Of a stretch of DNA of 64,000 nucleotides, positions 33,523 to 56,704 are shown piece after piece. Every line of letters starts with the position of its first letter. Position 1 is the first letter of the stretch. The stretch is from Hyphococcus sp. Lineage in GTDB: Bacteria; Pseudomonadota; Alphaproteobacteria; Caulobacterales; Parvularculaceae. Where the stretch lies: assembly GCA_028284345.1 (NCBI GenBank), contig JANQRY010000006.1:620001-684000 (forward strand). Direction: 5' to 3'. Below the pieces are notes generated by a model. That model did not search any database. It saw only the letters and a list, made by a program, of their open reading frames with translations, and was not told the DNA's origin. Position numbers and translations under genes: made by a program.

Positions 33523-33731
33523 TTACGTGTAAGCCTTAGTGCAGAGATAGCTATTATCCAGCTCACAACGAGTATAGTTGCGACGCCTAGCATACCATTC
33601 AAGCCGTAATCGGCCGAACCCACGGCTGCTGGAACGACTGCGAACAATAAAATGATAGTTTGGAAAACTGCTCCAAAAAGTAATACCCATGCCAAAATGC
33701 GCCAAATGCTCATTCCCCAGAATTTTGGCAT
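33519..33731 (-). CDS. Small two-helix membrane protein inside the ast operon
   Basis: The 70-residue product has two membrane helices (about 10-34, WRILAWVLLFGAVFQTIILLF, and 45-66, NGMLGVATILVVSWIIAISAL) with a basic tail. Its gene lies 3 bases after astD and overlaps astB by 4, so it is part of the operon. The sequence is AT-richer than its neighbours. I do not recognise the family; it has no known place in arginine breakdown. It could be a small regulatory or transport-helper peptide. Confidence 0.6.
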   Translation of the reverse strand: MPKFWGMSIWRILAWVLLFGAVFQTIILLFAVVPAAVGSADYGLNGMLGVATILVVSWIIAISALRLTRK

Positions 33732-33734
33732 CCT

Positions 33735-35204: not shown

Positions 35205-35208
35205 TGGA

Positions 35209-37628: not shown

Positions 37629-40250
37629 ATGCTGCACTTCATTGAAAACGCGCTGGTCGGCTGGGCGGAATTGGCGCGACGCGGCGGCGCCGTTCTGGCG
37701 CTGGTGATTCTGGCGGCGACGGCCGCCGCCGGGTGGTACGCCGCCGGCAATCTGAAGGTGAACACCGACACCAGCGCCATGCTGGACGCGGAACTCCCGT
37801 TTCAGAAACGGTCCATCGAGTTGCGCAATGCGTTTCCGCAGATCAAGACTGACATCATTGTCATCGTCAGGGCGCCGACCCTCGACGAAGCGGACGCCTA
37901 CGCGGCGGACCTGCGGGGCGCCATCGCCGCCGACCAAGACGCCTTTGACGCGGTCTTCGCGCCGGCGCAGGAAAATTTCTTCGCCGAGAACGGGCTCCTC
38001 TACCTAAGCGAAAGGGAACTGGAATCGCGTCTGACGCAGATGACCAAAGCGTCGAGCCTCATTGAAACGCTGATCAAGAGCCCGACCCTCGGCACATTCT
38101 TCACAACGCTCGCCGACAATGACGCGCTCGCGGAGCGGTCCGATCTCGGCGCCGATACGCTGCGGGCGCTTTACGATGAGATCGCCAAAACCATTGCCGC
38201 CGCAGAAAAAGGCGACGACCGTCCGTTTTCCTGGATGGGCGCCCTCGACGATGAAACGCGGGAAAAACCGGCGCATACGCGGCTCATCTATGCGAGCCCC
38301 GTGCTCGACTATTCGCGCCTGCAGCCGGCGAAGTCGGGCATCGAAGCCTTGCGCGCGCAAATCGCCGCGCTGGACGAGAAATACGCCGGCCGCGTCGACG
38401 CCTTTGTCACCGGCGATCCGGCGCTGCGCGTTGAGGAACTGGAAGCGGTCACGACCGGCATCGGCCTTTCCATGGGCCTGTCGTTGATCGTCGTCACTAT
38501 CCTGCTGCTCCTTTGTTACCGGTCGACGGCGATGGCGGCATTCACGGTGTTGAGCCTCATTGTCACGCTTGTCCTGACGTCTGCCTTCGCGGCGAAGTTT
38601 GTCGGCGAACTCAATCTCGTTTCCGTCGCGTTCACCGTGTTGCTGATCGGCCTCGGTCTCGACTTCGCCATCCACCTTCTCCTCCATGTGCAGGAACGGC
38701 GCGTCGACGGCCAGAGCAACAAGGATGCGTTGCAAGGGGCGCTTCATGAGGTCGGCCCCGCACTCGCCCTCGCGGCGCCGACGACGGCGCTCGCCTTCCT
38801 CTCTTTCGTGCCGACGAAATTTGACGGCATCGCCCAGCTCGGCGTCATCGCCGGCGCGGGGGTTATTATCGCGTTTTTCGTCTCGGTCACGTTCCTCCCC
38901 GCGGCCTTGAAACGCCTGCCGGTGTCGCGCAAGAAAAAGCGGGCGGGCGTCGTGCGCGGCGCCTTCGCCGCCATTGAGAAAATCGCCGCGCCCATTGCCG
39001 TCGTCACAATCCTTGCCGGCGTCGCTGCGCTCATTTTCATGCCGCAGGTGCGTTTTGACGCGGATCAGATGTCCCTGCGCAATCCGAACGCGCCGTCGGT
39101 CAAAGGCTTCAATCTGCTTTTCGACGATGAAGAAACCATTCCCTATCGCCTGACGCGGCTCGTCGGGTCGGAAGACGACGCGCGCGCCACCGCCGAAAAG
39201 GCGTCCGCGCTTGAAACCGTCGCCGCGACACGCTCGCTCCCGGACTTCGTGCCGGAAGATCAGGACGCAAAGCTCGAACTCATCGACTTCGCCGCCGGCA
39301 CGCTCGTCTTTGCCTTTGACGCCGAACCCGGCAGCGTCGAAGGCCCGCCCGCCGCAGAGGGAATTTCCACGCTGAAGACGCGGCTCGACGAAGCCTATGC
39401 GGACGGACCGGGCGCGCGCCTCGGCGCGCTTCTCGGCAACATTGAGGCCGCGAACGATCCGGCGCTGGTCGAGCGCATCGAACGGAACATCTTCAGATAC
39501 TGGCCGGCGCTCACCGAACGGCTCGCGGCGCAACTGAACGCGGACTATGTGGAAGTGGATACGCTCCCGGACTCGTTGCGCGCGCGCTATCTGTCTGACG
39601 ACGGACAGTGGCGCGTCGACATCCTGCCCGCACAGGACGTCCGGGATTACGGCGCGCTCACCGCTTTCGTCGACGACGTGGCTGCGATCTTTCCCGACCT
39701 TACCGGCGGCGCCTATCAATCGCTGAAGGCGGGCGAAACGATTTCGACCTCCATGCTTCAAGCGACAGGCATCGCCTTTGTCGTTGTCGCGGTGATGCTG
39801 ATCATCTTCATCGGCCGCATCCGTCTTGTCGGACTTGTGCTGTTCCCCCTCGCCCTTGCCGCTGTGCTGACGGCGGCGACCGGCGTTCTTCTCGACATCC
39901 CGTTCAACTACGCCAATGTCATCGTCCTGCCGCTGCTCATTGGCATCGGCGTCGACGCCGGCATCCATCTGGTGCTGCGCCATGATCAGGTCGCTGCCGG
40001 CGAAGGAGTTTACGGCACCTCGACCCCGCGAGCGGTGCTTTTTGCAGCGCTGACCACGGTGGCCAGTTTCGGCTCGCTGATGCTGTCGCCCCACCGGGGC
40101 ACCGCCTCCATGGGCGAACTCCTCTCCATCGCCATCGCCTTCACGCTGATTTGTACGCTGGTGGTGCTGCCGGCGGCCTTCGACTACGCCGAAAAACGCG
40201 CGCCCGAAGCGATCCGGCGATCTGACAGGGTGAGATTCAAAACCAAGTAA
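37629..40250 (+). CDS. hpnN: Hopanoid-associated RND transporter
   Basis: HpnN (873 residues) is an MMPL/RND-type inner-membrane transporter needed to move hopanoids to the outer membrane. A first membrane helix (12-34) is followed by a periplasmic loop, a bundle of helices near 278-440 (including VAFTVLLIGLGLDFAIHLLLHVQERR), a second loop, and a final helix bundle (from about 715; IVLPLLIGIGVDAGIHLVLRHDQ). The two-fold repeat and the paired GIGVDAGIHL/GLGLDFAIHL motifs are characteristic. HpnM follows in the same direction after 169 bases. Confidence 0.92.
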   Translation: MLHFIENALVGWAELARRGGAVLALVILAATAAAGWYAAGNLKVNTDTSAMLDAELPFQKRSIELRNAFPQIKTDIIVIVRAPTLDEADAYAADLRGAIAADQDAFDAVFAPAQENFFAENGLLYLSERELESRLTQMTKASSLIETLIKSPTLGTFFTTLADNDALAERSDLGADTLRALYDEIAKTIAAAEKGDDRPFSWMGALDDETREKPAHTRLIYASPVLDYSRLQPAKSGIEALRAQIAALDEKYAGRVDAFVTGDPALRVEELEAVTTGIGLSMGLSLIVVTILLLLCYRSTAMAAFTVLSLIVTLVLTSAFAAKFVGELNLVSVAFTVLLIGLGLDFAIHLLLHVQERRVDGQSNKDALQGALHEVGPALALAAPTTALAFLSFVPTKFDGIAQLGVIAGAGVIIAFFVSVTFLPAALKRLPVSRKKKRAGVVRGAFAAIEKIAAPIAVVTILAGVAALIFMPQVRFDADQMSLRNPNAPSVKGFNLLFDDEETIPYRLTRLVGSEDDARATAEKASALETVAATRSLPDFVPEDQDAKLELIDFAAGTLVFAFDAEPGSVEGPPAAEGISTLKTRLDEAYADGPGARLGALLGNIEAANDPALVERIERNIFRYWPALTERLAAQLNADYVEVDTLPDSLRARYLSDDGQWRVDILPAQDVRDYGALTAFVDDVAAIFPDLTGGAYQSLKAGETISTSMLQATGIAFVVVAVMLIIFIGRIRLVGLVLFPLALAAVLTAATGVLLDIPFNYANVIVLPLLIGIGVDAGIHLVLRHDQVAAGEGVYGTSTPRAVLFAALTTVASFGSLMLSPHRGTASMGELLSIAIAFTLICTLVVLPAAFDYAEKRAPEAIRRSDRVRFKTK

Positions 40251-42043: not shown

Positions 42044-42721
42044 TCACCGGCGGCCGTCGACGAAGCCTTCCCCGTCGCAGACCTCGCACGCCCGCGCAAT
42101 CAGCCCGCGTTTGCCGCGCCCGCCGCAATCATCGCACATGACGCGGCTGGCGCGAGCCGCGCCGAGAAAGGTCGACAGCATGTCGATATCGCTTCTGGCC
42201 TCGCCCTCGATCGGCGCCGGCGGCGCCATATTGGTTGCAAATTTCCGCGCCGCGTCGAGTTTCGCCGCCGGGAAGGCGTCGGCCATGGAGGCGCTGTCCC
42301 CTTGCAACCGATGAATGCAGAGGACGAGATCGCGCCGCCACTGCTCGATGATCAGGTTGAACTGGGTTTCGTCAAAGGCGCCCGCGACCTGCAGCCCGGC
42401 CATCAGAAAAAGATCATTATTTTCTAGGGATGCGACGGAGATATGCAGGTTCTGGTTGAGCTGTTCGACGGCCTGCGCCGTGACCGGGAAGCCGACAAAC
42501 CGGGCGAGAAAGCCGAGTTCCGACACCTGTTCCGAGCCCGGCCCGGTCTGCATCAGGGCGACGACGAAATTCACGCCGTTGTCCTGAACCCCATAGACCT
42601 TGAGCGGACCGTCCTCGCCCAACACGTCGACATCGCTGAACCGCCGCTTCAGCGCCGCCACAACGTCCCGCAGCGGCCACGCCGTATCGCCGGCGGCGCC
42701 GCCGGAAAACAACTTGAACAT
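42044..42721 (-). CDS. YbjN-like protein with C-terminal DnaJ-type zinc motif, unknown function
   Basis: The 225-residue protein has an N-terminal alpha/beta domain (about 15-145) with a type III chaperone/YbjN-like look (LNQNLHISVASLENNDLFLMAGLQV). The C-terminus is a zinc-knuckle pair: C196xxC199GGxGKRG and C212xxC215xGxG, the pattern of DnaJ cysteine-rich repeats, though only two of the four are present. This would bind one zinc. Nothing else of DnaJ is there. It precedes ispA on the same strand by 75 bases, suggesting co-transcription. Function unknown. Confidence 0.6.
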   Translation of the reverse strand: MFKLFSGGAAGDTAWPLRDVVAALKRRFSDVDVLGEDGPLKVYGVQDNGVNFVVALMQTGPGSEQVSELGFLARFVGFPVTAQAVEQLNQNLHISVASLENNDLFLMAGLQVAGAFDETQFNLIIEQWRRDLVLCIHRLQGDSASMADAFPAAKLDAARKFATNMAPPAPIEGEARSDIDMLSTFLGAARASRVMCDDCGGRGKRGLIARACEVCDGEGFVDGRR

Positions 42722-43980: not shown

Positions 43981-45135
43981 ATGTCAGTTTCCCTGCACCA
44001 GCAAGTCCGCGTCGGCGCTTACGTTGCGAAACAAACGCTGCTCGGCCGCGAGAAATATCCGCTGGTCCTGTTTTTAGAGCCGCTCTTTCGCTGCAACCTC
44101 GCCTGTCCCGGCTGCGGCAAGATCGACTATCCGGCGCCGATCCTGAACAAGCGCCTTTCCGTCAAAGAATGCCTCGACGCCGTTGACGAATGCGGCGCGC
44201 CGGTTGTCGCCGTTCCCGGCGGCGAGCCGCTGATCCACAAAGAGATCGGCGAGATCGTTGAAGGCATTGTCGCGCGCAAGAAGTTCGTCTCGCTCTGCAC
44301 CAACGCGCTACTGCTCGAAAAGAAACTGCACCTCTTCAAGCCGTCGCCGTTTCTTTTCTTCTCCGTGCACCTCGATGGTCTTGAAGAAGAGCACGACAAG
44401 GCGGTCGATCAGAAAGGCACGTTCAAGATCGCCATCAAGGCGATCAAGGCGGCGCAGGAAAAAGGCTTTCAGGTCAACGTCAATGCGACGATCTTCGATA
44501 ATATGACTGCGGAAATGGTCGCGGATTATCTCGACTTCGCGACGGACCTTGGCGTCAATATCTCGATCTCGCCAGGCTACGCCTACGAACGCGCGGAAGA
44601 CCAGGAAAGCTTCCTGTCGCGTAAGAAAACGAAACAATTGTTCCGCGACATTTTTAAAATCGGCAAAGAGCGCGGGCGGGCGTGGAACCTGTCGCACTCA
44701 TCGCTCTTCCTCAATTTCCTCGCCGGCAATGAGGAATATCACTGCACGCCCTGGGGCTCGCCCACGCGCAACGTCTTCGGCTGGCAGAAGCCGTGTTACC
44801 TCCTCGGCGAGGGCTACGTCTCCTCGTTCAGCGAACTGATGGAAACAACCGAGTGGGATCAGTACGGCACCGGCAAATACGAAAAATGCGCCAACTGCAT
44901 GGCCCATTGCGGCTATGAACCGACGGCGGCCATGGATGCGGTGAAGAACCCGTTCAAAATGTTCCGCATTCCGAACATGTTCAAGATCAAGACCGAAGGT
45001 CCCATGGCGCCGGAGATCGACCTTTCGAAAGCGCGCCCCGCCGTCGACGTCCACGAAAAAATCGTCGCCGACGAAATGTCAAAGATCGAGCGCGAGAAAG
45101 AGACCGCGAAAGAGCGGACCGAGGTCGCGGCGTAG
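43981..45135 (+). CDS. hpnH: Adenosyl-hopene transferase (radical SAM)
   Basis: HpnH (384 residues) attaches the 5'-deoxyadenosyl group to diploptene to form adenosylhopane, the first step of C35 hopanoids. The radical-SAM Cys triad is in RCNLACPGCGKIDYP, followed by GGEPLIHKEI. C-terminal cysteines (CANCMAHCGYEPTA) form the SPASM-like/auxiliary region typical of HpnH. It is in an operon with ispH. Its last 57 bases overlap the end of the convergent hpnG gene. Confidence 0.95.
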   Translation: MSVSLHQQVRVGAYVAKQTLLGREKYPLVLFLEPLFRCNLACPGCGKIDYPAPILNKRLSVKECLDAVDECGAPVVAVPGGEPLIHKEIGEIVEGIVARKKFVSLCTNALLLEKKLHLFKPSPFLFFSVHLDGLEEEHDKAVDQKGTFKIAIKAIKAAQEKGFQVNVNATIFDNMTAEMVADYLDFATDLGVNISISPGYAYERAEDQESFLSRKKTKQLFRDIFKIGKERGRAWNLSHSSLFLNFLAGNEEYHCTPWGSPTRNVFGWQKPCYLLGEGYVSSFSELMETTEWDQYGTGKYEKCANCMAHCGYEPTAAMDAVKNPFKMFRIPNMFKIKTEGPMAPEIDLSKARPAVDVHEKIVADEMSKIEREKETAKERTEVAA

Positions 45136-45774
45136 CCGCGCCAGCGCTTTTTCCGAATCGGACCCAAGCTTTAAAAGCGCCGGGAATTGCCCCGGCGCTT
45201 TCGCCGTTTCAAGAAGCGTTTTGAAAACGCGCGTCGATCCGTCCGGCGCCACGGCGCTCAGCGCCGCCGGCGGCAACGCGCGGCTCGCCGGGTCGGCGAT
45301 GGCGCGAATGGCGGCAAAAGGCACGCGAAACTCAGCCGCAGCCTTGGCTGCGCCATGGCTCTCCATGTCGACGGCGATGGCTTCGTGATTGTAAAAAAGC
45401 GCGGCCTTGTGATCGGCCGACTGAATGATGGCGTCAGAACCGAAAAGGGCGCCGGTCTGCGCTGCGTTCTCTGAAAGAGTCTTACGCGCGGCGCTCAAGA
45501 GATAGGGTTCCGCGTGATAGCGAACGCCAGAGTCGTCGGCGATTACTTCATTGCCGAAGACGAGATCGCCCGGCGAGAGCGCCGGATCGAGCCCGCCGGA
45601 AACGCCAACGGAGATCACCGCCGCCGCGCCATCCTGGCAGGCAACGCGCGCCAACTCGTAGGCACGCCCCGCATCGGCGCCGGAAACTCCGACGCGAACT
45701 TTTTCGTCCCCGACGGATTTTCCGACGACAGCGGCCTCAGATTTCAGCCCGCAAATGACGGCAATGAAGCTCAT
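45079..45774 (-). CDS. hpnG: Hopanoid-associated phosphorylase
   Basis: The 231-residue protein is a purine-nucleosidase/MTA-phosphorylase-like enzyme. It has VISVGVSGGLDPALSPGDLV, then AVDMESHGAAKAAAEF, where the Glu is the usual base contact, and AIRAIADPAS. HpnG removes adenine from adenosylhopane to yield ribosylhopane. ATG at 45772-45774 (MSFIAVICGLKSEA) has AAGG 4 bases upstream. The 3' end overlaps hpnH by 57 bases in antisense. Confidence 0.9.
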   Translation of the reverse strand: MSFIAVICGLKSEAAVVGKSVGDEKVRVGVSGADAGRAYELARVACQDGAAAVISVGVSGGLDPALSPGDLVFGNEVIADDSGVRYHAEPYLLSAARKTLSENAAQTGALFGSDAIIQSADHKAALFYNHEAIAVDMESHGAAKAAAEFRVPFAAIRAIADPASRALPPAALSAVAPDGSTRVFKTLLETAKAPGQFPALLKLGSDSEKALARLRRDLGPLFRGLFLALDL

Positions 45775-45872
45775 GCCTTCATCTACAGACAAAATGCGAC
45801 GCTTATCCAGCGAAAATCCGAACTCTGTGATTACAACCGGACTTCAGGCCAACTGTTAACTGTTACGAGCCT

Positions 45873-47189
45873 TCAAAATTCGTGCGTCATATCCGGCATT
45901 CTCCGCTCTGGATTAGTGGCCGTTTCGACATTATCGCGCTCATTACTGTCGTTATTGTTGTCATCGTTATCGCTGCCCTCACGATTATCGTCATCGCCAC
46001 TTTCAGGACGCCTCAAACGATCTGTGTGTGTAGTTTTGGCTCTCTCGATGGCTTTTGAAGCCGCCTCAAGCCCAGCGTCAATTCGGCATTGATCGTGAAA
46101 TCGGATTGCATCACGCATTGCCGCTTCCAGCGGGTATCGTGCAACGCTGGTTACACCAAGCCGCTGGGCAGATTTATCCGTTTCCCTGTCTATGCCTGGG
46201 ACAGGTTTCGTATCGGTCCAAGTTGGTGTTTTTTTCTTCGTATTTTTTTCTTTTTTATCTTCCTTATCGCTCGATCGCTCCGCAGTTTGCACTAGGAATC
46301 CGTCTTCTATTGGAACGCTTCGGCCGTGGATTACATTTAGATTTGTCGCTTTATCCCAGCCAAGAATTGCAGAAATACCTTGAAAACTTCGCAATTGCGG
46401 GTCGAGTTCTGGCGGCACGCCTGTGTCAGACTCAGAGCCTTCGTCCTGTTCAAACAAAAAGAAACGTCTTCGATTGATGTCGATAAGCATTTCTTCGCGC
46501 GCTAAATCAATACCCGCATTTACAGTACGTACAGCGGCGTTTTGCAATACTTGCTCGTTGTATTCCGACTGCCATCCCTGAACAATTGTAGAAGCCCCCG
46601 AAAGCGCACGAATTGTTGTTGTGTCTTTGAAGATCGTTGCCAAACCGGATAAGAGCTGGGCAGTCACTCCTGCACCAAGATTAACTCCGGCGGCGATATC
46701 AGCCAAGTTTAACTTAAAAGCCCGGCAGAAATCTTCCGAATGCAACATAATCGTGTCTTGAATATCATTACGCCGCATCGCCAACGCAATACTCTGCGCA
46801 GCTTTGCGTGCGGTTTTATCGTTTTGACCCGTAAGTTTATCAACTTCAGCATCTAGTAGATCTGGTGTTACAACTTTTTTTGGCTTTGCGATTACGAGCT
46901 CTCGGTAATAGTCAAATTCTGCTGATGACAGGTAGTATGTTTGAAACACACTCAGCGCACAGGTAAATTCTTCCGAAGCAGATGGCTGTTTGTCCCTGTA
47001 ACAACTGCCTTTGATTTTGAAACGACGTTGTTCGGGATCCACCAGGTTAGTTAGATCGATTTTTCCGAGCGCGTCATCTTCATAAACAATTCTTGCGCCA
47101 GTGAAATTTACTACGCGGTCACTTGTCTCACACCCGGCAATTGCGAGCGCACTGACCCCTAAGGCTAAGGCGAGTTTTTTGGATTTCAT
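45873..47189 (-). CDS. Orphan lipoprotein with Asp/Asn-rich tail, unknown family
   Basis: The 438-residue product has a lipoprotein signal with lipobox IAGC (Cys20), a mostly helical body (for example KAAQSIALAMRRNDIQDT, NLADIAAGVNLGAGVTAQLLSGLATIF), a Lys/Thr-rich stretch (KEKNTKKKTPT) and a low-complexity tail rich in Asp, Asn and Ser (DDDNREGSDNDDNNND). I recognise no family. The region is AT-rich (row 46861-46920 is 23/60 GC, against 39/60 in row 45001-45060 of hpnH). It splits hpnG from hpnE, so it is probably a later arrival. The predicted ribosome site GGGGGT precedes the ATG. Confidence 0.75.
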   Translation of the reverse strand: MKSKKLALALGVSALAIAGCETSDRVVNFTGARIVYEDDALGKIDLTNLVDPEQRRFKIKGSCYRDKQPSASEEFTCALSVFQTYYLSSAEFDYYRELVIAKPKKVVTPDLLDAEVDKLTGQNDKTARKAAQSIALAMRRNDIQDTIMLHSEDFCRAFKLNLADIAAGVNLGAGVTAQLLSGLATIFKDTTTIRALSGASTIVQGWQSEYNEQVLQNAAVRTVNAGIDLAREEMLIDINRRRFFLFEQDEGSESDTGVPPELDPQLRSFQGISAILGWDKATNLNVIHGRSVPIEDGFLVQTAERSSDKEDKKEKNTKKKTPTWTDTKPVPGIDRETDKSAQRLGVTSVARYPLEAAMRDAIRFHDQCRIDAGLEAASKAIERAKTTHTDRLRRPESGDDDNREGSDNDDNNNDSNERDNVETATNPERRMPDMTHEF

Positions 47190-47406: not shown

Positions 47407-48687
47407 TTAAAAAGTTTTCCCCAGCGCCAACCCCGCCGCCTTATCCCCTGACCGGATCGAGCCTTCAATGGTCGCCGGGACGCCGGTGTCGGTGTGATCG
47501 CCGGCGAGGAAGAGGTTGCGATAGTGCGTTTCCGGCTTGAGGCGTTTGCGGACGCCCGCCGGCGACTGGTCGGGGGTCGCGCGTTTTTCCCGGATAACGC
47601 GCGCATATTTATAGGCCTCATCGCCGAGGCCCAGGGCGATGCGCACCTCGCTCCATATCTGCGCAACGACCTTTTCATTGGGGACGTCGTCGGCGCCCAG
47701 CGCGTCCGCCGCCGATGTGGTTACGGAGACGACGTCGTCGCGCATGAAAACCCATTGGGCGAGACTGCCGATGAGGGCGATAAACGCGCTGTCCGTGGCG
47801 CGGCGGTTCTGGTAGGGCTCGCGCAATCGGAAATGCACATTAAGGATCGACGCGTCGTCCGCAGGCGGATCGAGCTCCGGCATGATCTGCTTCAGCCGCG
47901 TCGGCGGGATGGCGAAAATCACCTGATCGCCCTCCTCCAGATTGACGCTTTCATCGGCAAAGTTCAGGCTCTGAACCGCACCGCCTTCCATCCATGCATG
48001 GCGAAGTCTCGCATTGAAGCGAAGAAGGCCGCCGTTCTTTTCGATAAATTGTACGGCCGGGTCGATAAAAGCGGGGCCAAGGCCCGATTTCGCCACCAAC
48101 GGCGTCGATGCGGCGCCGCCCAGGAGAAACGTCTCGCGAATGACGCTCCAGAGCAGTTTCGCCGAGCCCCGCGCCGGCGTCGTGTTAAGGACGGCAAGCG
48201 TCAACGGCTCCCAGAAATTCTCAAACAGCGGCGATTTCTCATCAACAATATCCGCGACTGTTTTGTCAGAATCCGCAAAGGCGATCGCCGCAGCCTTTAC
48301 ATAGTCGAAAAGCCCGGTGTTCGGAACGCGTGTTTCTTCGTTGAAAATCCAAGACGGGACAACGCCGTCATTAATTTGGATCGTCCATCGCGCTTTCGTT
48401 CGCACATCAACGAAAGGATAGATCGCCCCCTCCGGCCAGATCAGCGGTTTCGGCGAGCCGATGCGGTCGAGATAGGAAAGCGCCGACTTGTTGCCGGACA
48501 TAATAAGGTGGTTGCCGTTGTCGATATGGCGGTCGAGATGCCTGTCGTAGAACGACCGGCAGCGCCCGCCGGCCTGCCCTGCGCTTTCGTAAACCGTTAC
48601 GGGGACGCCTGCTTCCGTCAGACGAACGGCGGCCGACAATCCGGAAAGCCCCGCCCCGATGATGTGAACGCGCGGCATTGCGTTCAT
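47407..48687 (-). CDS. hpnE: Squalene-associated FAD-dependent desaturase
   Basis: HpnE (426 residues) is an FAD amine-oxidase-like protein that reduces hydroxysqualene to squalene. The FAD loop IIGAGLSGLSAAVRLTEAGVPVTVYE is at residues 9-34, and the C-terminal LFLAGDHTDTGVPATIEGSIRSGDKAA matches the family's second FAD motif. It overlaps the hpnD stop by 4 bases (ATGA), so hpnC-hpnD-hpnE form a coupled operon for squalene. Confidence 0.93.
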   Translation of the reverse strand: MNAMPRVHIIGAGLSGLSAAVRLTEAGVPVTVYESAGQAGGRCRSFYDRHLDRHIDNGNHLIMSGNKSALSYLDRIGSPKPLIWPEGAIYPFVDVRTKARWTIQINDGVVPSWIFNEETRVPNTGLFDYVKAAAIAFADSDKTVADIVDEKSPLFENFWEPLTLAVLNTTPARGSAKLLWSVIRETFLLGGAASTPLVAKSGLGPAFIDPAVQFIEKNGGLLRFNARLRHAWMEGGAVQSLNFADESVNLEEGDQVIFAIPPTRLKQIMPELDPPADDASILNVHFRLREPYQNRRATDSAFIALIGSLAQWVFMRDDVVSVTTSAADALGADDVPNEKVVAQIWSEVRIALGLGDEAYKYARVIREKRATPDQSPAGVRKRLKPETHYRNLFLAGDHTDTGVPATIEGSIRSGDKAAGLALGKTF

Positions 48688-49559
48688 CCTGACCTGGTTT
48701 TCGGCGCAAAAAACCAGCGGGCGGCGATCATCAGTTTTTCAAGCTTCGAAATCGTCACGCGAGGCTGACCGTTGGCCCAGCCGCGCGCCGTCATCTTGTC
48801 GAGATAGCGCTCGTAAACGCCCATCATCAACAGGGCCGGTCTCAACACCCGCCAGTCAAGATCGGCCAGCGCAGCCCGCGTCGCCGCAAATTTCTCGCGC
48901 GCCATCCGCGCAATCTCTTCGCGCACGGATGGCAGGCCCGGCGCATCGACGATATCGTCGGGCGTCATCGGACAGCCATGCTTTTCCAGAAGCTCCCGCG
49001 GCAGATAGAGCCGGCCGTCATCCGCGTCCTGTTCAATGTCGCGCAGGATATTCGTCATCTGCAGCGCGTCGCCCAGCGACAACGCAAAGTCGTCCGCCGT
49101 TTTATTTCGCGGCGCCCCGAAGACCGGCATCGACAACATGCCGACGGCACCCGCGGCGCGGCGCGTATAGGCGAGAAATTGATCAAGGCTCGGCGCAACC
49201 ACAGGCCCCGCCGCATCCATCTCCATGCCTTCTATGACAAGGACGAATTCCTCACGGGACAGGCCAAAGCGCCGTACGACATCTTTCAGGGCGAGGCCGG
49301 TCGGCGTTTGCGGCGCGCCGGCGAAGATGCGGTCCACCTCGCGCCGCCATTCGGCGAGGCCCGCCATCTTTGTGTCGCGGTCGCCGCCCTCATCGGCGAT
49401 ATCGTCGACTTCGCGACAGAACGCATAAATAGCGTACATCGCTTCGCGACGCTCGCGCGAGAGAATACGCATCCCGGCGCCGAACGACGTCTTTGACCGC
49501 CTGACGGTTTCCGCCGCGTGGCGGCGCGCTTCATCCAGTGTCAGTTCCGTCGCGCTCAT
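48684..49559 (-). CDS. hpnD: Presqualene diphosphate synthase
   Basis: HpnD (291 residues) joins two farnesyl diphosphates to presqualene diphosphate. Both Asp-rich motifs of squalene/phytoene synthases are present: FCREVDDIADEGGD and ILRDIEQDADDGRLYLP. It overlaps hpnE by 4 bases downstream and hpnC by 4 bases upstream. Farnesyl diphosphate would come from IspA encoded 7 kb away in the same island. Confidence 0.94.
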   Translation of the reverse strand: MSATELTLDEARRHAAETVRRSKTSFGAGMRILSRERREAMYAIYAFCREVDDIADEGGDRDTKMAGLAEWRREVDRIFAGAPQTPTGLALKDVVRRFGLSREEFVLVIEGMEMDAAGPVVAPSLDQFLAYTRRAAGAVGMLSMPVFGAPRNKTADDFALSLGDALQMTNILRDIEQDADDGRLYLPRELLEKHGCPMTPDDIVDAPGLPSVREEIARMAREKFAATRAALADLDWRVLRPALLMMGVYERYLDKMTARGWANGQPRVTISKLEKLMIAARWFFAPKTRSG

Positions 49560-50461
49560 GGGCCCCTGTTTTTCTCCAGCCGGCCCGCCTCAAAAAAACC
49601 GGCGACGGCGCCGAAGAGACCCGCGGCTGCAAAATCAAGCTTTGAAAGCGCAACGCGCGCCGCGAGCGGGTCGCCTTTGCGCAACCGTTCGATCAGCCGC
49701 GCCGCGAGCCGCACAATCACGGCTGATTCCATAGCGAGACTTTTTGACGTCAGCGCGGCCGGCAATTGCCGCGCGTCCTGCATGAGGTCATCGCAGCCGT
49801 CGAGCATGCGATGTTTGACGCGCGTCAGCGCCGGACTCGACTTGTCGCGGTCGAGATCCTCAATGGCGCCGCCCTCTTCCTCAAGCCAGCGTTCAATCAC
49901 ATAGACCCGGTCAAGGGCGCGCCGGTCGTCGCCGCAATCCTGCAAATGATTGATAATCTGCAGCACCGTGCACAGCGCGTCGGAATAGCGATACTTCGCC
50001 GGATCTTCGCCGTGAATATCGAGCAGGTAACGCCCCACTGGATTGGCCGATAATTCGCAATAGCCCAGAAGTTCGTTCCAGTCGGCGTAGCGGGATTTTT
50101 CAGCATCAAGCACAAACGCCGCGACAAGGTCTGACCCATGCTTCGTTGTGACGCCGAGTTCACCGAGCGACGCGCGCAGCGCATGCGCCTTTTCGTATTC
50201 AGCGCCGTAGCCGGGCTCGCCCTGAAGCGCGGCGTCAAAGGCGCGCAAGCGGCGAATTTTTTCCTCCGGCGACAGACCGGCATTGTCGGCGATGTCATCG
50301 ATGGCGCGCGCGAAGGCATAGAATTTCGCCACATGGGGACGCAGCCGCTTCGGCAACAGGAACGAGCCCACGGGAAAGTTTTCATCGCCCGCGCCCTTGC
50401 CCGACGGCGTCTCCGCGGCGCCGCTTGCCGGCGGTTTTTCGGTGTCCAGAACAGCGCTCAT
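49556..50461 (-). CDS. hpnC: Hydroxysqualene synthase
   Basis: HpnC converts presqualene diphosphate to hydroxysqualene. The squalene-synthase-like motifs are AFARAIDDIADN and LQIINHLQDCGDDR, and NFPVGSFLLPKRLRPHVAKFYAFARA opens the conserved domain. The frame starts at 50533, but the conserved region begins late; ATG 50459-50461 (MSAVLDTEK) is chosen tentatively without a clear ribosome site. The alternative ATGs at 50476 and 50494 cannot be excluded. It is divergent from hpnB. Confidence 0.9.
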   Translation of the reverse strand: MSAVLDTEKPPASGAAETPSGKGAGDENFPVGSFLLPKRLRPHVAKFYAFARAIDDIADNAGLSPEEKIRRLRAFDAALQGEPGYGAEYEKAHALRASLGELGVTTKHGSDLVAAFVLDAEKSRYADWNELLGYCELSANPVGRYLLDIHGEDPAKYRYSDALCTVLQIINHLQDCGDDRRALDRVYVIERWLEEEGGAIEDLDRDKSSPALTRVKHRMLDGCDDLMQDARQLPAALTSKSLAMESAVIVRLAARLIERLRKGDPLAARVALSKLDFAAAGLFGAVAGFFEAGRLEKNRGP

Positions 50462-50531
50462 GGCGGGGCGCACCATACCGGGTTCGCGGCGCATTCCAAG
50501 CGCCGCGGGAGACCGCTTTGCCCCGCGGACC

Positions 50532-51722
50532 ATGAGGATATACGACCTGCCGACTATGACGTTTCTCGCCCTTTTCTCCCTCGCCGCCTGGGTCTGGCTG
50601 GCGCTCTTTCGCGGCGGCTTCTGGCGCGCCGATCAACGGCTTGGCGACAGGACGGCGCCCGTCCCAGCGCGCTGGCCCAGCGTCGTCGCGGTCGTCCCTG
50701 CACGCGACGAAGCGGCGACCATCGGCGACGTCATCGCCGCTCATATGGCGGCGGCCTATCCCGGCGACTTCGCCGTCATTCTCGTCGACGACAATTCCAA
50801 CGACGGAACCGGCGACATCGCCAGAGCCGCCGCCGACGGATCGGATCGCCTGCGCATCATCGATGGCGCACCCCTGCCCCACGGTTGGACCGGCAAATTG
50901 TGGGCGGTTCATCAAGGACTGACGGCGGCAACGGCACGCGGACGCCCCGACTATATTCTGCTGACCGACGCCGACATTGTTCTCGCCCCGGACACGCTGA
51001 CGCGTCTGGTGGCAAAAGCCGAAGCGGAAGGGTTGAGCCTCGCCTCGCTGATGGCGCGCCTCGACGCCCGCGGGCTTTGGGGCGGTTTGCTGGTGCCGGC
51101 TTTCGTCTTCTTCTTTCAGAAGCTCTATCCGTTTCCACTGTCGAACGATCCGAATGAGACGTCCGCGGCGGCGGCGGGCGGCTGTATGCTCGTGCGCGCC
51201 GCCGATCTCGGCGCCGCCGGCGGCGCCGCGGCGATCCACGATCAGTTGATCGACGACTGTGCGCTGGCGCGCGCCGTCAAAGATCTGACGCCGGCGACGC
51301 GCACATGGATCGGCCTCGCCGACGATGAAGCGACAAGCCTGCGCGACAACCGTTCGCTTTCATCGATCTGGACCATGGTGGCGCGCACGGCCTATGCGCA
51401 ACTTGGCTTTTCGCCGTTCATGCTGGCGCTCGCAATCATCGGCATGGGGCTCATCTATCTGGCGCCGCCGCTGATCGCGCTTGGCTACGCCGCCCATGAG
51501 GATGGGCTTGCGGCGGGCCTAGCTCTCATCGCCTGGGCGATCATGGCGCGGCTTTATTATCCGACGCTGAAACTTTATGGCGGCGAAGCCTGGCAGGCGG
51601 CGGCCCTGCCCCTTGCCGGCGCGCTATACGCGGCGATGACGGTCGACTCCGCAATCCGCCATTGGCGCGGCCGCGGCGGTCAGTGGAAGGGCCGGCATTA
51701 TGATTTGAGCAAGACATCTTAG
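50532..51722 (+). CDS. hpnB: Hopanoid-associated glycosyltransferase
   Basis: HpnB (396 residues) is a family 2 glycosyltransferase with a membrane anchor near residues 8-28 and two to three helices at the C-terminus. The nucleotide-sugar site has PARDEAATIG, the metal-binding DDNSNDGT (86-93) and LLTDADIVL; the acceptor region holds DDCALARAVK. Its exact sugar is unknown. It is divergent from hpnC-D-E in the standard hopanoid layout. Confidence 0.88.
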   Translation: MRIYDLPTMTFLALFSLAAWVWLALFRGGFWRADQRLGDRTAPVPARWPSVVAVVPARDEAATIGDVIAAHMAAAYPGDFAVILVDDNSNDGTGDIARAAADGSDRLRIIDGAPLPHGWTGKLWAVHQGLTAATARGRPDYILLTDADIVLAPDTLTRLVAKAEAEGLSLASLMARLDARGLWGGLLVPAFVFFFQKLYPFPLSNDPNETSAAAAGGCMLVRAADLGAAGGAAAIHDQLIDDCALARAVKDLTPATRTWIGLADDEATSLRDNRSLSSIWTMVARTAYAQLGFSPFMLALAIIGMGLIYLAPPLIALGYAAHEDGLAAGLALIAWAIMARLYYPTLKLYGGEAWQAAALPLAGALYAAMTVDSAIRHWRGRGGQWKGRHYDLSKTS

Positions 51723-51774
51723 CGAAACCTTGCCACCCGGTTTCTTCTCTACACAGACGAACAGCAAGAATGCA

Positions 51775-51782
51775 TTAACCAT
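51775..51782 (+). promoter_or_regulatory. CtrA-like half-site upstream of the 88-residue hypothetical gene
   Basis: TTAACCAT, a known CtrA half-site form, lies 43 bases before the start at 51826. A single 8-mer is weak evidence. Confidence 0.25.
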
Positions 51783-51825
51783 AATCGCGTTCACTCGCCC
51801 GCGATCCATCAGCGAGGCGAACGCC

Positions 51826-52092
51826 ATGACCGACCAATACCAGCCCTTCGGCCCATACTATCTGACGCTGTTTTGCGAGAACGCAGACGCGGCGGAAATC
51901 GTCGACACCGTCTATGTCGATGGTTTTGACAGCGAAGCGGACGCCTGGACCGCCTGCAACGGCATCGCCCTTAAAACGGTCGACGCCATCGACGAAACGG
52001 GCGAAACGGTTGCTGTCGACGGCGCGCTCATCTTGCAGGCGCTCATCTCAAAGGCCGTCGGCGCCGACTTCCCGCACAGCTTCGCCGCCTGA
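51826..52092 (+). CDS. Small hypothetical acidic protein
   Basis: The 88-residue acidic protein (MTDQYQPFGPYYLTLFCENADAAEIVDTVYVDGF...) has a short alpha/beta appearance, with no signal peptide, membrane helix or known motif. ATG 51826 has GAGG about 10 bases upstream. I do not recognise it. It is convergent with the universal stress protein gene (6-base gap). Confidence 0.5.
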   Translation: MTDQYQPFGPYYLTLFCENADAAEIVDTVYVDGFDSEADAWTACNGIALKTVDAIDETGETVAVDGALILQALISKAVGADFPHSFAA

Positions 52093-52643: not shown

Positions 52644-53510
52644 TCAGCGTTCTAGGGCGCGCTCTGGGTGGCGTCCGTCAACATAGCCCATGAAAGGCGG
52701 GTGGATCGAATAGCCGATCAGCTCGCGCGCCCGTTTGGGCAGCGTCTTCGCAATCTCCGGCGGCGTCGCGATCGCCATGTTTTCGAGCTGCCGCGTCCAG
52801 CCGGGGCAATATTGCGGGGTAATAATCAGCCGCGGCGCATTTGAAACATTGGCGCCGCCGCGATGCCAGAGCGTGCCCTTGGCCAGCATCAGCGACCCGG
52901 CGGGCATGACCGCCTTTTTGATATCGGGCCGCACCCCGATGTCGGCCTCGCGCGCTTTACCGCGCATGAAATCGTCAACGCCGACCGCGCCGTCGATCAC
53001 GTCATCCGGCCACAGATGACTGCCGGGGAGGATTTCCGTGGCGCCGTTTTCCTCGGTCGTCTCGTCGATGGCCCAGAACGCGCTGACGCCGAGGGACGGC
53101 CGCGGACGCGGCCATCGATAGTGACTGTCGTCGAAATGCCAGGGCTGCGGCGTCTCGCCGGGATGAATCTTGATGGCGAGACAGGCGGACAACAGGCAGT
53201 CGGCGCCGAGATCGGCTTCTGCAAACGCCAGCGCCAACGGATGCGCCGCGAGATCGGCGAACACGGCGCCCTTGGCAAGCAGCGCATAGACGCGATTGGT
53301 GTCCCGGCCTTCGAACTCGTTGCGGCCGTGAATGTCCTGATCGAGATAGGGCGCGAGCCCCGCGCGGATATCCGCCAGGGTCTCATCAGACAAAACGCGG
53401 TCGAACTGGACGTAACCGTCGCGGTCAAACTGCGTGCGCCAGTCATCGAAAGACCGACCGTCCAACCAACGCGATATGTCGCTATGTTGCATGTCGTCAG
53501 GCGTCGCCAT
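52644..53510 (-). CDS. Phytanoyl-CoA dioxygenase (PhyH) family hydroxylase
   Basis: This 288-residue protein has the Fe(II)/2-oxoglutarate facial triad of PhyH enzymes: His125-x-Asp127 in WHFDDSHY and His216 in LWHRGGANVSN, with a 2-oxoglutarate-binding Arg near RLIITPQY. The family hydroxylates lipid-like or small substrates. It lies 50 bases downstream of hpnA on the same strand, so it may be the last gene of the hpnA operon; hydroxylation of a hopanoid or lipid is inference. Confidence 0.85.
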   Translation of the reverse strand: MATPDDMQHSDISRWLDGRSFDDWRTQFDRDGYVQFDRVLSDETLADIRAGLAPYLDQDIHGRNEFEGRDTNRVYALLAKGAVFADLAAHPLALAFAEADLGADCLLSACLAIKIHPGETPQPWHFDDSHYRWPRPRPSLGVSAFWAIDETTEENGATEILPGSHLWPDDVIDGAVGVDDFMRGKAREADIGVRPDIKKAVMPAGSLMLAKGTLWHRGGANVSNAPRLIITPQYCPGWTRQLENMAIATPPEIAKTLPKRARELIGYSIHPPFMGYVDGRHPERALER

Positions 53511-53560
53511 AACGGAATTCCAATGTTGCGGTCGCCCGCATCATCGCGCAAAGCGTGCGC

Positions 53561-54556
53561 TCACGAAACCGTCTTGCGCAGCAGTCCTTCAGCAGCAAAC
53601 CAGTCGATTGCAGCGCGCAGCGCCGGGCGCCAGTCCGCCGCTTTCCAACCAAGCCGCGTCGCAGCCTTGTCGCTGAAAAAACACGCTTGCCGGCCGGCGA
53701 GGCGCACGCCCGTCAGCGGCGCCTTGGGCGGCTTGCCGGTCAACGTCGAAACGAGTTTCGTGTCGACCGCGCCGGCGGCGAGCGCGACCCAATACGGCAT
53801 TTTTGTTTTCGGCGCGGGAACGCCGGTAATCTTTTCGATTTCCGCCAGCAAATCCCGCATGGGCGTGTTCTCGCCGCCAAGGAGATAACGCTCGCCGCGC
53901 GCGCCATGCTCGCGGGCCGCGATCAGTCCTTCAGCGATGCTCGCTGCAGGGACGAAATTCAGAACGCAGCCAATATAGGCCGGCGTCGCGCCATTGGCGA
54001 AGTCGAGGATCATCCGGGTTGGCGGCGTCAACGCGGCGTCACCCGGGCCCAAAGGTTCGGTCGGCAACGCGATGACCGCATCGAAACCTTTCGCCGCCGC
54101 CGCCTCGACAATGCGTTCGGCTTCAAGTTTCGAGCGCGGATAGGGCCCGAGCATCTCTTCTGGCGTCAGGCGCACGCTTTCATCGGCGGTGGACGCGCCA
54201 ATCGGCGTCTTTTCGCCCACAAGCGTCGTCAGGCTTGAGCAGTGTACGAATTTTCGCACGCCGGCCTTGACCGCGGCATCGACGACGATTTCCACGCCGC
54301 GGCGGTTGATCTCGTCGAAGACGCCGCGGTCTTTCACCCACAGATGGGCGACGCCGGCGAGATGGAAAACGCTGTCCACATCCTCCATGGCCGCGGCGAC
54401 AGCAGCGGCGTCAGTGATGGACCCTTGAACATCGTTCGTCGTCAGAGGCGGCGCGAGATCGAACGACCGGACGCGCTCGCCGCGGTCGCGCAACAACCGG
54501 ACAAGCTCGTTGCCGACAAAGCCGGATCCGCCGGTGACCAGCGTGACGCCGTTCAC
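53561..54556 (-). CDS. hpnA: Hopanoid-associated sugar epimerase
   Basis: The 331-residue extended SDR has the NAD(P) loop TGGSGFVG (about 8-15) and the Tyr-x3-Lys pair in YPRSKLEAE. The LPTEPLGPGDAALTPPTRMILDFANGATPAYI stretch is the HpnA signature. It probably epimerises or dehydrates a sugar used on hopanoids; no reaction is proven. It overlaps the next gene downstream-of-start by 4 bases (ATGA), so it is coupled to the SMP-30-like lipoprotein. Confidence 0.85.
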   Translation of the reverse strand: MNGVTLVTGGSGFVGNELVRLLRDRGERVRSFDLAPPLTTNDVQGSITDAAAVAAAMEDVDSVFHLAGVAHLWVKDRGVFDEINRRGVEIVVDAAVKAGVRKFVHCSSLTTLVGEKTPIGASTADESVRLTPEEMLGPYPRSKLEAERIVEAAAAKGFDAVIALPTEPLGPGDAALTPPTRMILDFANGATPAYIGCVLNFVPAASIAEGLIAAREHGARGERYLLGGENTPMRDLLAEIEKITGVPAPKTKMPYWVALAAGAVDTKLVSTLTGKPPKAPLTGVRLAGRQACFFSDKAATRLGWKAADWRPALRAAIDWFAAEGLLRKTVS

Positions 54557-55599
54557 GTCTCCTTCTCGCAGACGAGAAGGCCGGTGTCCGTGACGGACCC
54601 GGCGACGAGACCCCGCGTCGTTGCGACGCCAATTGTCGCCGCGCTGAACAGCGCGCCCTTGGGATCGTCAAAGAGCAATGCCGCATCGCCGGTTTCAATG
54701 TCGATGCGCGCAATGCGCGATCCCGCTTTGCCGATCCCCAGTTTGCGGTTGAACGCAAGGCGAAGAAGGTTGGGATGCAGGGCCGCAATAATGTCGCCGT
54801 CGCCGGAAACCGAAAGATTGTCCGGCGCGCCGGGCGCATCCGCCACGAATTGCCGCGATCCCTCCTCCTTGTTTGCCCGAAAGATGTGAACGGCTTTTTC
54901 CCGCGTCGCCGCGACCGCGAAGCCATCGGACAGAACCGCAACGCCATTGGCGAAGGCGACGCCGTCGATAAGCGCCCCGCCGTCGTCGAAATAGGCGCCG
55001 CTTTTCTTTTGTCCGAGCACGGTCTCAAAAAACCGCGGAACGCCGCCGCACGCCAGATGGTCGCGCGTAAAAAGATGACTGTCGCCCACAAGCGCGACGT
55101 CGTTCGTTGCGCAATGGGCGCTTTGCAATGCAACGTCGCCATCGGCGCTGATGCGAACCAGCGACGGCCGCATGCGCCACCGCCCCTTGTCTTCAACGTA
55201 ACCCCGATTGACGAAAGCGATTTCGCCTTGAGCGAAGTCAAGGCCATGGGGCCGCAGGCCGTTCTCAAAGTCTTGCCGGTCGACCAGCGGCATCGCCTCA
55301 AGCGACTTTTGCGCATCGAACAGCGCGTCGACGTCGACCGCATAAACGCCGCCTTGCGGCGGCGGCGCGCTCCCGCTCGCCGCTTTTTCCGTCGCACGGC
55401 GATCATAGGCGGAAACGATCAGGCGCCCGCCTTCTGCATCGAGCGCCATGTCTTCCGCGCCGACAATGGGCGCGCCGGTTTGCGCATCGGTAAGGTCCAC
55501 CCGCCGGCAGTCGCCATGGGCGTAAAACGGATCGTCCGCCGGCGCCCCACATGCGGCCAGCGCCAGACAACAAAAAACCGCTGCGAGATTACGCGGCAC
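54553..55599 (-). CDS. SMP-30/arylesterase-like beta-propeller lipoprotein
   Basis: The 348-residue product has a lipoprotein signal (NLAAVFCCLALAAC, lipobox LAAC) and a six-bladed propeller pattern with repeated Asp/Gly turns (AEDMALDAEGGRLIVSAYD, then FENGLRPHGLDFAQGEIAFVN, then GAPDNLSVSGDGDIIAAL). These carry possible metal-binding Glu/Asn residues of SMP-30/PON-type enzymes. The start is GTG at 55599, which begins the signal peptide and overlaps the sulfotransferase stop by 11 bases. It may be a lactonase or esterase on the outer or inner membrane. Substrate unknown. Confidence 0.75.
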   Translation of the reverse strand: MPRNLAAVFCCLALAACGAPADDPFYAHGDCRRVDLTDAQTGAPIVGAEDMALDAEGGRLIVSAYDRRATEKAASGSAPPPQGGVYAVDVDALFDAQKSLEAMPLVDRQDFENGLRPHGLDFAQGEIAFVNRGYVEDKGRWRMRPSLVRISADGDVALQSAHCATNDVALVGDSHLFTRDHLACGGVPRFFETVLGQKKSGAYFDDGGALIDGVAFANGVAVLSDGFAVAATREKAVHIFRANKEEGSRQFVADAPGAPDNLSVSGDGDIIAALHPNLLRLAFNRKLGIGKAGSRIARIDIETGDAALLFDDPKGALFSAATIGVATTRGLVAGSVTDTGLLVCEKET

Positions 55600-56704
55600 T
55601 GTCTTGCAATTGCGCCGCGTCCGCGCCCGGCCGGGCGTATCCCCATTTGTCGATAAAATACTGCAACCGCCCTTCGACTTTTTTTGCCGCCTCATCGGAA
55701 TAGGAGAACTTGTTTTTCTCGAACGTCTTGACCGAGGCGAGATAGCGCTCGAACGCCGCATGGGACGCATCAAACCCCGGCAATCCGAGCGCGGCGTAGA
55801 TCTTTTCAAGGGCCGCCATGGGCGCTTCGTCGAGTTCCTTGTAGCTCAGCTCGCATAGTTGCTCGGCCGGAACGGACGCCGCGTCGCGTTCATAGGCGCG
55901 CATCATCCGGTCATAGATTGAGAGGATCGTTTCATCGATGTCGACATGCTCGTAGCTCTGCAGCGCGAACTCCTTCAGCAATTTTTCGTAGAAATTCCGC
56001 ATCGAGAGAAAAACGTCATAAGGGTTGCGATGAATGTGGACGAACTTCGCGCCCGGAAATATCTCCCGCAACATGGCGAGCCGGCCCGTATAGACCGGGT
56101 TCTTGATCAGCAGCGGCTTCTTGCCCTGATGCAGGTAGAGCTTGCGCAAGAAGTACGTGAACTGCCGGCGCCAGCCGCGGATGTCCGCGGTCGAGCAGCC
56201 GTCGAAAAAGAGGCCGCGCTGAACATTCTCGGCAAAATTCCGCGGGAAATAGATGCCGTGATAAAAGGAAGCCTCCGACATGTTGGCAATGGCGATTTCG
56301 TCTTCCTGCGGGCTTTCGGGCGTCACCGGAATGTTGTCGATATAGCGATGTTTCGGCAGGGCCCGCTCAAGCAGGGGCTCGAACGCTTTCGCCAGACCGA
56401 AGAGATCCCAGGGCAAGCCCGTCGCCACCGGCGGCACGAACCCCCACTGCCCGCTCTGGCACATGATGTTGTAAAGGTGGGTCGTCCCCGACCGCCAGTG
56501 GCCGAGAATGAACACCGGCGCCGGCATGTCGTCGATCGACGGCAGGCGGCTTTCCATCACGAGCTTTTCGCCGACGGAAAACGGCCAGCGCCCAAGCGCC
56601 GCAAGGGCGACGCCGGCGCCGGCGACGGGTTTCGCCGGCAGGCCGGAGCGGCCGATAACGGTCGCCAGGGTTCCGATATTCGCGCCGCTTAAAGGATGGG
56701 CCAT
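55589..56704 (-). CDS. Sulfotransferase family protein
   Basis: The 371-residue protein has the PAPS-binding signatures: GHWRSGTTH (residues 68-76, 5'-phosphosulfate loop) and VHIHRNPYDVFLS (3'-phosphate-binding strand/helix with Arg). A late helix holds YKELDEAPMAALEKIYAALGLP, a common end of these enzymes. It would transfer sulfate from PAPS to a hydroxyl; the acceptor is unknown. It overlaps the lipoprotein gene (11 bases), which overlaps hpnA, so sulfation of a hopanoid or its sugar is an attractive inference. It is divergent from tamA. Confidence 0.88.
   Translation of the reverse strand: MAHPLSGANIGTLATVIGRSGLPAKPVAGAGVALAALGRWPFSVGEKLVMESRLPSIDDMPAPVFILGHWRSGTTHLYNIMCQSGQWGFVPPVATGLPWDLFGLAKAFEPLLERALPKHRYIDNIPVTPESPQEDEIAIANMSEASFYHGIYFPRNFAENVQRGLFFDGCSTADIRGWRRQFTYFLRKLYLHQGKKPLLIKNPVYTGRLAMLREIFPGAKFVHIHRNPYDVFLSMRNFYEKLLKEFALQSYEHVDIDETILSIYDRMMRAYERDAASVPAEQLCELSYKELDEAPMAALEKIYAALGLPGFDASHAAFERYLASVKTFEKNKFSYSDEAAKKVEGRLQYFIDKWGYARPGADAAQLQDSAA

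Follow-up and report, generated by a model that had tools for sequence, protein, structure and literature searches.

A sulfotransferase and an HpnA-like dehydrogenase conserved beside hopanoid genes in Hyphococcus sp. and distant bacteria: candidate genes for a sulfated hopanoid

Introduction

In bacteria, hopanoids are the main counterparts of sterols, and they have left a long molecular fossil record. One described way of placing a polar head group on bacteriohopanetetrol (BHT), found in a subset of producers, is the HpnI-HpnK-HpnJ pathway, which makes a cyclitol ether (PMC12583986). The available part of that paper, which compared 54 selected alphaproteobacteria, treats the functions of hpnA, hpnB, hpnL and hpnM as not settled, and saw no obvious new candidates in the vicinity of hpn clusters, with new side chains still being found. 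For HpnA, whose own function is given there as not known, a conversion of ribosylhopane to BHT has been suggested (PMC5462960, available part); the same source cites evidence that HpnA is dispensable for this step in Burkholderia cenocepacia. Here, we describe a run of genes at the end of a hopanoid gene island in Hyphococcus sp. (Parvularculaceae; assembly GCA_028284345.1, contig JANQRY010000006.1, positions 620,001 to 684,000), a stretch of 64,000 nucleotides referred to below as the window. The run encodes a sulfotransferase (ST), a lipoprotein (LP), an extended short-chain dehydrogenase (SDR) resembling HpnA, and a dioxygenase (PhyH). We lean towards the view that its core, composed of ST and the HpnA-like SDR and usually accompanied by LP, is an alternative module for tailoring bacteriohopanepolyols, in which ST would sulfate a hopanoid hydroxyl.

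Results

The Gene Run and Its Conservation in Parvularculaceae

All four genes lie on the minus strand of the window. ST (55589..56704), a Sulfotransfer_3-family enzyme of 371 amino acids predicted to use 3'-phosphoadenosine-5'-phosphosulfate (PAPS), is followed by LP (54553..55599, GTG start), a predicted lipoprotein with a paraoxonase-like propeller, and by SDR (53561..54556, GTG start), for which we use the name HpnA2. The Fe(II)/2-oxoglutarate dioxygenase PhyH (52644..53510) comes last. ST and LP overlap by 11 bases, LP and SDR by 4, and 50 bases separate SDR from PhyH, just as an earlier note on this DNA, made from the sequence alone, had described the layout, strand and spacing.

LP was searched in 62 Parvularculaceae genomes, and 36 loci were examined as longer stretches; since these were picked from LP matches, the presence of LP is conditioned by the choice, while that of ST and SDR is not (L and G numbers below are our own labels for loci and genomes). 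ST was found in 35 of the 36 loci, the exception (L055) lying at a contig edge, and SDR in all 36; ST, LP and SDR share one strand in 35/35. Such a joint arrangement in 35 of 36 loci is not a matter of chance. Genes of the hpn series were seen in 35 loci as well, and in the remaining one (L062) the contig stops just past SDR. With start codons set by rule, the overlap of LP and SDR amounts to 4 bases in 30/35 loci. The earlier note would have counted its reading as refuted had the genes been neighbors in this genome only; their recurrence in 35/36 family loci and beside hpn genes in distant lineages (see below) disposes of a single-genome accident.

PhyH behaves differently from the other three genes. 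The protein scores 99.9 bits against PF05721 (gathering threshold 22), and the HxD motif at 125-127 (H125, D127) and H216 are present. According to the earlier note, PhyH and ST would hydroxylate and sulfate the same hopanoid as products of a single operon, and the tight spacing in the window, together with the position of PhyH beside the triad in 18/36 family loci, speaks for such a pathway. Nevertheless, PhyH is missing from the other 18 loci, SDR is separated from PhyH by a Usp gene in L039 and L065, and other lineages carry ST and SDR without PhyH, the only match outside Parvularculaceae being a weak one located 8 kb away (L088/L171). We therefore regard the four-gene pathway as improbable and do not retain PhyH as a core or full operon member: it is an accessory, lineage-specific local extra.

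A squalene-hopene cyclase match was obtained in 45 of the 62 family genomes (42 above the cut-off), and the distribution of LP agrees with it in 61/62. All 45 genomes with a cyclase have an LP orthologue, with G056 counted as a carrier on a partial 73-bit match that lies below the best family paralogue matches (79 bits). Among the 17 genomes without a cyclase match, LP occurs only in G045, which is 76% complete. In genus g8, LP is restricted to the four genomes with a cyclase.

The cyclase gene of the window genome (G000) is on a separate contig (G000:C7:128164-130017, 686 bits). It lies away from the hpn island in most Parvularculaceae too, and the match of these proteins to the model goes no further than about position 612. 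The g8 cyclases match it to about position 637 and are encoded about 6 kb from LP in three of the four genomes.

Distribution outside the Family

A scan of genome contigs with ST gave 571 relatives, of which the best 80 were kept, so that absences from this set are soft. The first 13 (L073-L085) are of the Parvularculaceae type and have all three genes. Among the next 28 (L086-L113), 23 have SDR, 13 have LP and 15 have a clear hpn gene within the record, a count that leaves out an HpnH-like match at 37% in L108. The last 39 (L114-L152) look different: L116 alone, with an ST identity of 39%, carries SDR, LP and hpnN; a distant SDR (157-165 bits) is present in L142, L147 and L150; and the other loci of this set showed no LP and no Hpn match above 100 bits. 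Carriers of ST include Azospirillum brasilense, A. canadense, A. isscasi, Skermanella stibiiresistens, Defluviicoccus, Litchfieldella qijiaojingensis, Pedosphaera, cyanobacteria and Phycisphaera, where ST adjoins hpnN without SDR. In Azospirillum, Skermanella, Halomonadaceae and others, both ST and SDR stand beside hpn genes.

A class sample of 385 genomes was searched with an ST threshold of 1e-40 and at most five ST candidates scored per genome. SDR adjoins ST in 10 of the 11 genomes with ST, and LP is found there too in eight; the eleventh (G433) has a partial ST where a contig ends, close to hpnN. In longer stretches from eight of these genomes, ST and SDR, with or without LP, were embedded in a large hpn cluster in six cases (L170-L173, L175, L176); in the other two (L169, L174), fewer hpn genes accompanied them.

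In a tree of 80 ST sequences, all 45 rows linked to SDR fell into one 57-row group supported at 100/100. Three Parvularculaceae rows from g8 leave their family in both the ST and SDR trees and group with a Paracoccaceae metagenome-assembled genome (MAG), a Sphingomonadaceae MAG and the class genome G157 (six rows, 100/99 or better in both trees). Such a parallel regrouping suggests that ST and SDR have moved together.

A second kind of sulfotransferase, 37-41% identical, exists in Azospirillum (L114, L117, L119, L168). Its neighborhood is another one, with a weak glycosyltransferase match, and the two genomes of this kind that were searched gave no hopene cyclase.

The Link to Hopanoid Metabolism

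Within the class sample, a cyclase match was present in 107/385 genomes and in 11/11 of those with ST (Fisher 5e-7, a value that treats related genomes as independent). The contrast between close and distant ST relatives points the same way. The cyclase search covered genomes from L086-L113 (19 of 28 loci) and from L114-L152 (12 of 39 loci, a selection without L116); the cyclase exceeded the cut-off in 19/19 genomes with a close ST vs 1/12 with a distant ST. The distant set had a cyclase in one of G465, G466 and G467, and above the cut-off in none of the nine others. The genes for ST and cyclase share a contig, no more than 15 kb apart, in 4/11 class genomes (G157, G182, G286, G372) and in 5/19 of the close-ST genomes (G447, G448, G449, G450, G453).

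HpnI, at 1e-60, was found in 33/385 class genomes, all positive for cyclase: in 0/11 genomes with ST vs 33/96 of the other cyclase genomes. Across 22 ST genomes (the 19 from L086-L113 plus three Parvularculaceae), HpnI was present in one.

Thus, distant lineages keep the run next to their hpn genes, and in the genomes searched ST tracks the squalene-hopene cyclase, so the tie to hopanoids drawn in the earlier note stands, and we place the module in hopanoid metabolism with little doubt. An alternative is that the module decorates a surface glycan and shares with the hpn genes a role in the envelope and nothing more. The name of HpnA, which says sugar epimerase, would suit such a role, as would the distant ST relatives, which lack hpn genes and mostly the cyclase, and the copies of the Azospirillum lipoferum type with their weak glycosyltransferase neighbors. 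Yet an agreement between ST and cyclase that, in the genomes searched, extends over Alpha- and Gammaproteobacteria, Planctomycetota, Verrucomicrobiota and Cyanobacteriota would be hard to obtain from a general glycan role, and we think it improbable that glycans are the substrate.

The Sulfotransferase

ST passes the PF13469 model with a score of 112.4 (gathering threshold 27). It has a P-loop (GHWRSGTT at residue 68) and a 3'-phosphate motif (HRNPYDVFLS at 225), and both, including R226 and S234, are invariant in 18/18 aligned orthologue rows; we take the P-loop and these R and S residues to form the PAPS and 3'-phosphate sites. An AlphaFold2 (AF2) model (predicted local distance difference test, pLDDT, 82.4) had as its top Foldseek matches in the PDB the mycobacterial sulfotransferases STF1 and STF9 and the sulfotransferase domains of CurM and olefin synthase (OLS). 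These are the closest solved folds, although they are just 15-16% identical to ST, and we know of no link between any of them and hopanoids. Judging from fold and motifs, ST very probably transfers sulfate.

In addition to the domains of CurM and the Synechococcus olefin synthase, Foldseek placed LGS1 and retinol dehydratase near ST. In CurM, olefin synthase and retinol dehydratase, sulfation presumably serves elimination or cyclization, as the title of the LGS1 entry indicates for that enzyme. The sulfate might accordingly be a leaving group, with SDR or LP then yielding an unsaturated, anhydro, cyclized or epimerized hopanoid free of sulfate. However, ordinary sulfotransferases are also many among these neighbors, and the module contains no partner enzyme for an elimination. 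We consider such activation unlikely, if less so than the glycan role or the four-gene pathway.

HpnA2 and Canonical HpnA

Like HpnA, SDR is an extended short-chain dehydrogenase encoded beside hpn genes. It scores 101 bits against Epimerase (PF01370) and keeps the canonical motifs TGxxGxxG and YxxxK (TGGSGFVG and YPRSK in the alignment). Against the HpnA equivalog model TIGR03466, it reaches 298.7-299.2 bits, short of the curated cut-off of 367.65. A tree was built from 65 of 90 labelled SDRs plus the window sequence, with family rows thinned, L082-L085 dropped and an interrupted HpnA (L185) unused. A branch at 100/100 separated 46 rows that have ST at most 4 kb away, along with eight without it, from nine canonical HpnA rows above the cut-off and two other low-scoring ones. 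SDR is hence HpnA-like, outside the canonical HpnA clade, and the label hpnA given to it in the earlier note has to be dropped. The canonical HpnA loci examined have ST beside them in 0/10 cases.

It is tempting to suppose that HpnA2 takes the place of canonical HpnA. HpnA exceeded the cut-off in 80/385 class genomes, 76 of them cyclase-positive, and in 0/11 class-sample genomes with ST, and G433 had no HpnA match of any kind. In the set of 22 ST genomes, 21 had an HpnA match of some kind, and four (G446, G451, G463, G464) had HpnA above the cut-off, which excludes strict replacement and leaves only a tendency. Canonical HpnA and HpnA2 are present together in three genomes.

The Lipoprotein

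LP had no Pfam match at 0.001, and its score against Pfam Arylesterase (14) was below the gathering threshold of 21.3. Structure was more informative: for the AF2 model (pLDDT 91.5), all ten best Foldseek matches in the PDB were serum paraoxonase PON1 (best E 3.2e-16, template modeling score 0.67-0.73), and a profile match to PON1 had an E of 8.5e-8. PON1 residues H115, N168, N224, D269 and N270, which we take to be catalytic residues or calcium ligands, align with invariant H118, N166, N218, D260 and N261 of LP, and invariant E49 is presumably the counterpart of PON1 E53. LP is therefore predicted to be a six-bladed propeller of the paraoxonase type in which the catalytic-calcium site is conserved. 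It differs from PON1 in its low identity (16-18%), in an Arg at the position of H134, the second dyad His, which leaves the H115-H134 dyad incomplete, and in being a bacterial lipoprotein with a lipobox. PON1 heads both the profile and predicted-fold lists with SMP-30 far lower, and the SMP-30-like label first attached to LP was rejected for that reason. A search of the genome collection with LP as the query gave no usable pattern.

The lipobox of the window protein reads LAAC, and a simple lipobox pattern matches 32/36 family rows and 42/62 rows of a wider set. The misses within the family are L055 (cut by a contig end), L040 (FAAC), L052 (doubtful start) and L048. By the sorting rule for lipoproteins, the absence of Asp after the lipobox Cys directs a protein to the outer membrane; no Asp follows this Cys in LP, which is why we place it, probably, at the outer membrane.

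Discussion

From these data we can sketch how the module might work. HpnH and HpnG would supply adenosylhopane and ribosylhopane, and SDR may alter the ribose-derived side chain by oxidation, reduction or epimerization, as the chemistry of its family suggests. Cytoplasmic ST would then pass sulfate from PAPS to a hydroxyl of the side chain or head group, giving an anionic hopanoid for export by HpnN. At the outer membrane, LP might hydrolyze a lactone or ester of this hopanoid, again by analogy with its family, and PhyH would add a hydroxylation in some Parvularculaceae only. Like the HpnI-HpnK-HpnJ pathway, such a module would provide a polar head group, by a different chemistry; in most carriers the charged group would replace the HpnI-dependent cyclitol ether. 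A stable sulfated hopanoid is, in our opinion, a somewhat better than even prospect as the product.

Published phenotypes offer a further comparison. According to the available part of PMC12583986, Rohmer products were absent from Microvirga massiliensis, Azospirillum brasilense and Skermanella aerolata despite the presence of key genes, and intact hopanoids were detected in all three species, those of S. aerolata including methylated adenosylhopanes. The M. massiliensis and S. aerolata cases are called unclear there, perhaps a matter of detection limits. Whether strains of that panel carry ST was judged by species and strain names only. The plasmid ABSP7_p1 of A. brasilense Sp7, a laboratory strain, has the order SDR-ST-LP-hpnN, with hpnG and hpnH further along. 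Rohmer-negative carriers of ST would fit side chains modified in such a way that they escape the assay.

Several observations weigh against a sulfated hopanoid, or against a uniform module. In A. brasilense, adenosylhopane alone was detected, which is the authors' own explanation of its Rohmer result, and none of the 63 structures is described as sulfated in the available part of the paper (PMC12583986). The type strain of S. aerolata has an ST of the 57-row group with no SDR or LP within 10 kb, and canonical HpnA only; M. massiliensis, with the same anomaly, is not among the best 80 of 571 ST loci. A sulfate at C-35 only would still permit periodate cleavage. A cyanobacterial hopanoid co-occurrence module does not mention a sulfotransferase in the part of PMC5862535 available to us. 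The kinase for adenosine 5'-phosphosulfate (APS) was found in 13/13 genomes examined (12 above the cut-off), and also in 11/14 controls; being nearly universal, it says little in favor of sulfation.

The gene associations have gaps as well. Eight HpnA2 genes without an adjoining ST come from genomes without an ST match. Conversely, L090, L105, L106, L107 and L108 lack SDR; the records of L105, L107 and L108 span 6 to 15.5 kb, and the L090 genome had no HpnA match at 1e-55. The 57-row ST group includes 12 unlinked rows, for example from Acetobacteraceae and lipoferum-type Azospirillum. Finally, many loci with ST and SDR lack LP (Litchfieldella, cyanobacteria, Pedosphaera), which is thus not essential everywhere.

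With these points in mind, we put forward tentatively, as somewhat short of an even prospect, a broader proposal: a class of sulfated, anionic hopanoids in Parvularculaceae, the A. brasilense group and scattered Gammaproteobacteria, Planctomycetota, Verrucomicrobiota and Cyanobacteria, which would be made by ST and HpnA2, often finished by LP at the outer membrane, and missed by the Rohmer assay and by target lists. We found no report of sulfated or sulfonated hopanoids or bacteriohopanepolyols in the open-licence literature, with print elsewhere possible, and pairing hopanoids with sulfotransferase or sulfate ester gave nothing on the subject there by title and abstract start. If the proposal is true, bacterial hopanoids would include a charged kind, much as sterols include sterol sulfates, current assays would be missing a class of compounds, and strains with hopanoid genes and no Rohmer products might be explained. 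The module is itself a candidate gene set near hpn clusters, where the available part of PMC12583986 saw no obvious ones.

Other Genes in the Window

The rest of the hpn island lies at lower window coordinates. It comprises the RND-type hopanoid transporter HpnN (37629..40250, plus strand; TIGR03480, 776 bits), the adenosyl-hopene transferase HpnH (43981..45135, plus; 524 bits), the squalene synthesis proteins HpnC, HpnD and HpnE (47407..50533, minus) and the glycosyltransferase HpnB (50397..51722, plus; TIGR03469, 487 bits), all above their cut-offs, and the phosphorylase HpnG (45079..45792, minus), just below it (183.4 bits vs 187.1). The island also contains ispH, a farnesyl diphosphate (FPP) synthase gene and an HpnM-like protein (67 bits, cut-off 160).

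Three further proteins are interspersed among these genes. A 225-amino-acid protein beside ispH (42044-42721, minus) had no NCBIfam match at 1e-10 and is kept in several family loci (about 42-62% identity). Between hpnG and hpnE, there is a lipoprotein-like protein of 438 amino acids (45873-47189, minus) with no significant Pfam match. The third, of 120 amino acids (51730-52092, plus), also has no Pfam match; it is encoded between hpnB and the Usp gene and kept in a subset of family loci. Elsewhere in the window, a homologue of the tryptophan dehydrogenase ScyB (29703-30755, minus; 333 bits, cut-off 600) lies near genes of the arginine succinyltransferase pathway at 32215-36222.

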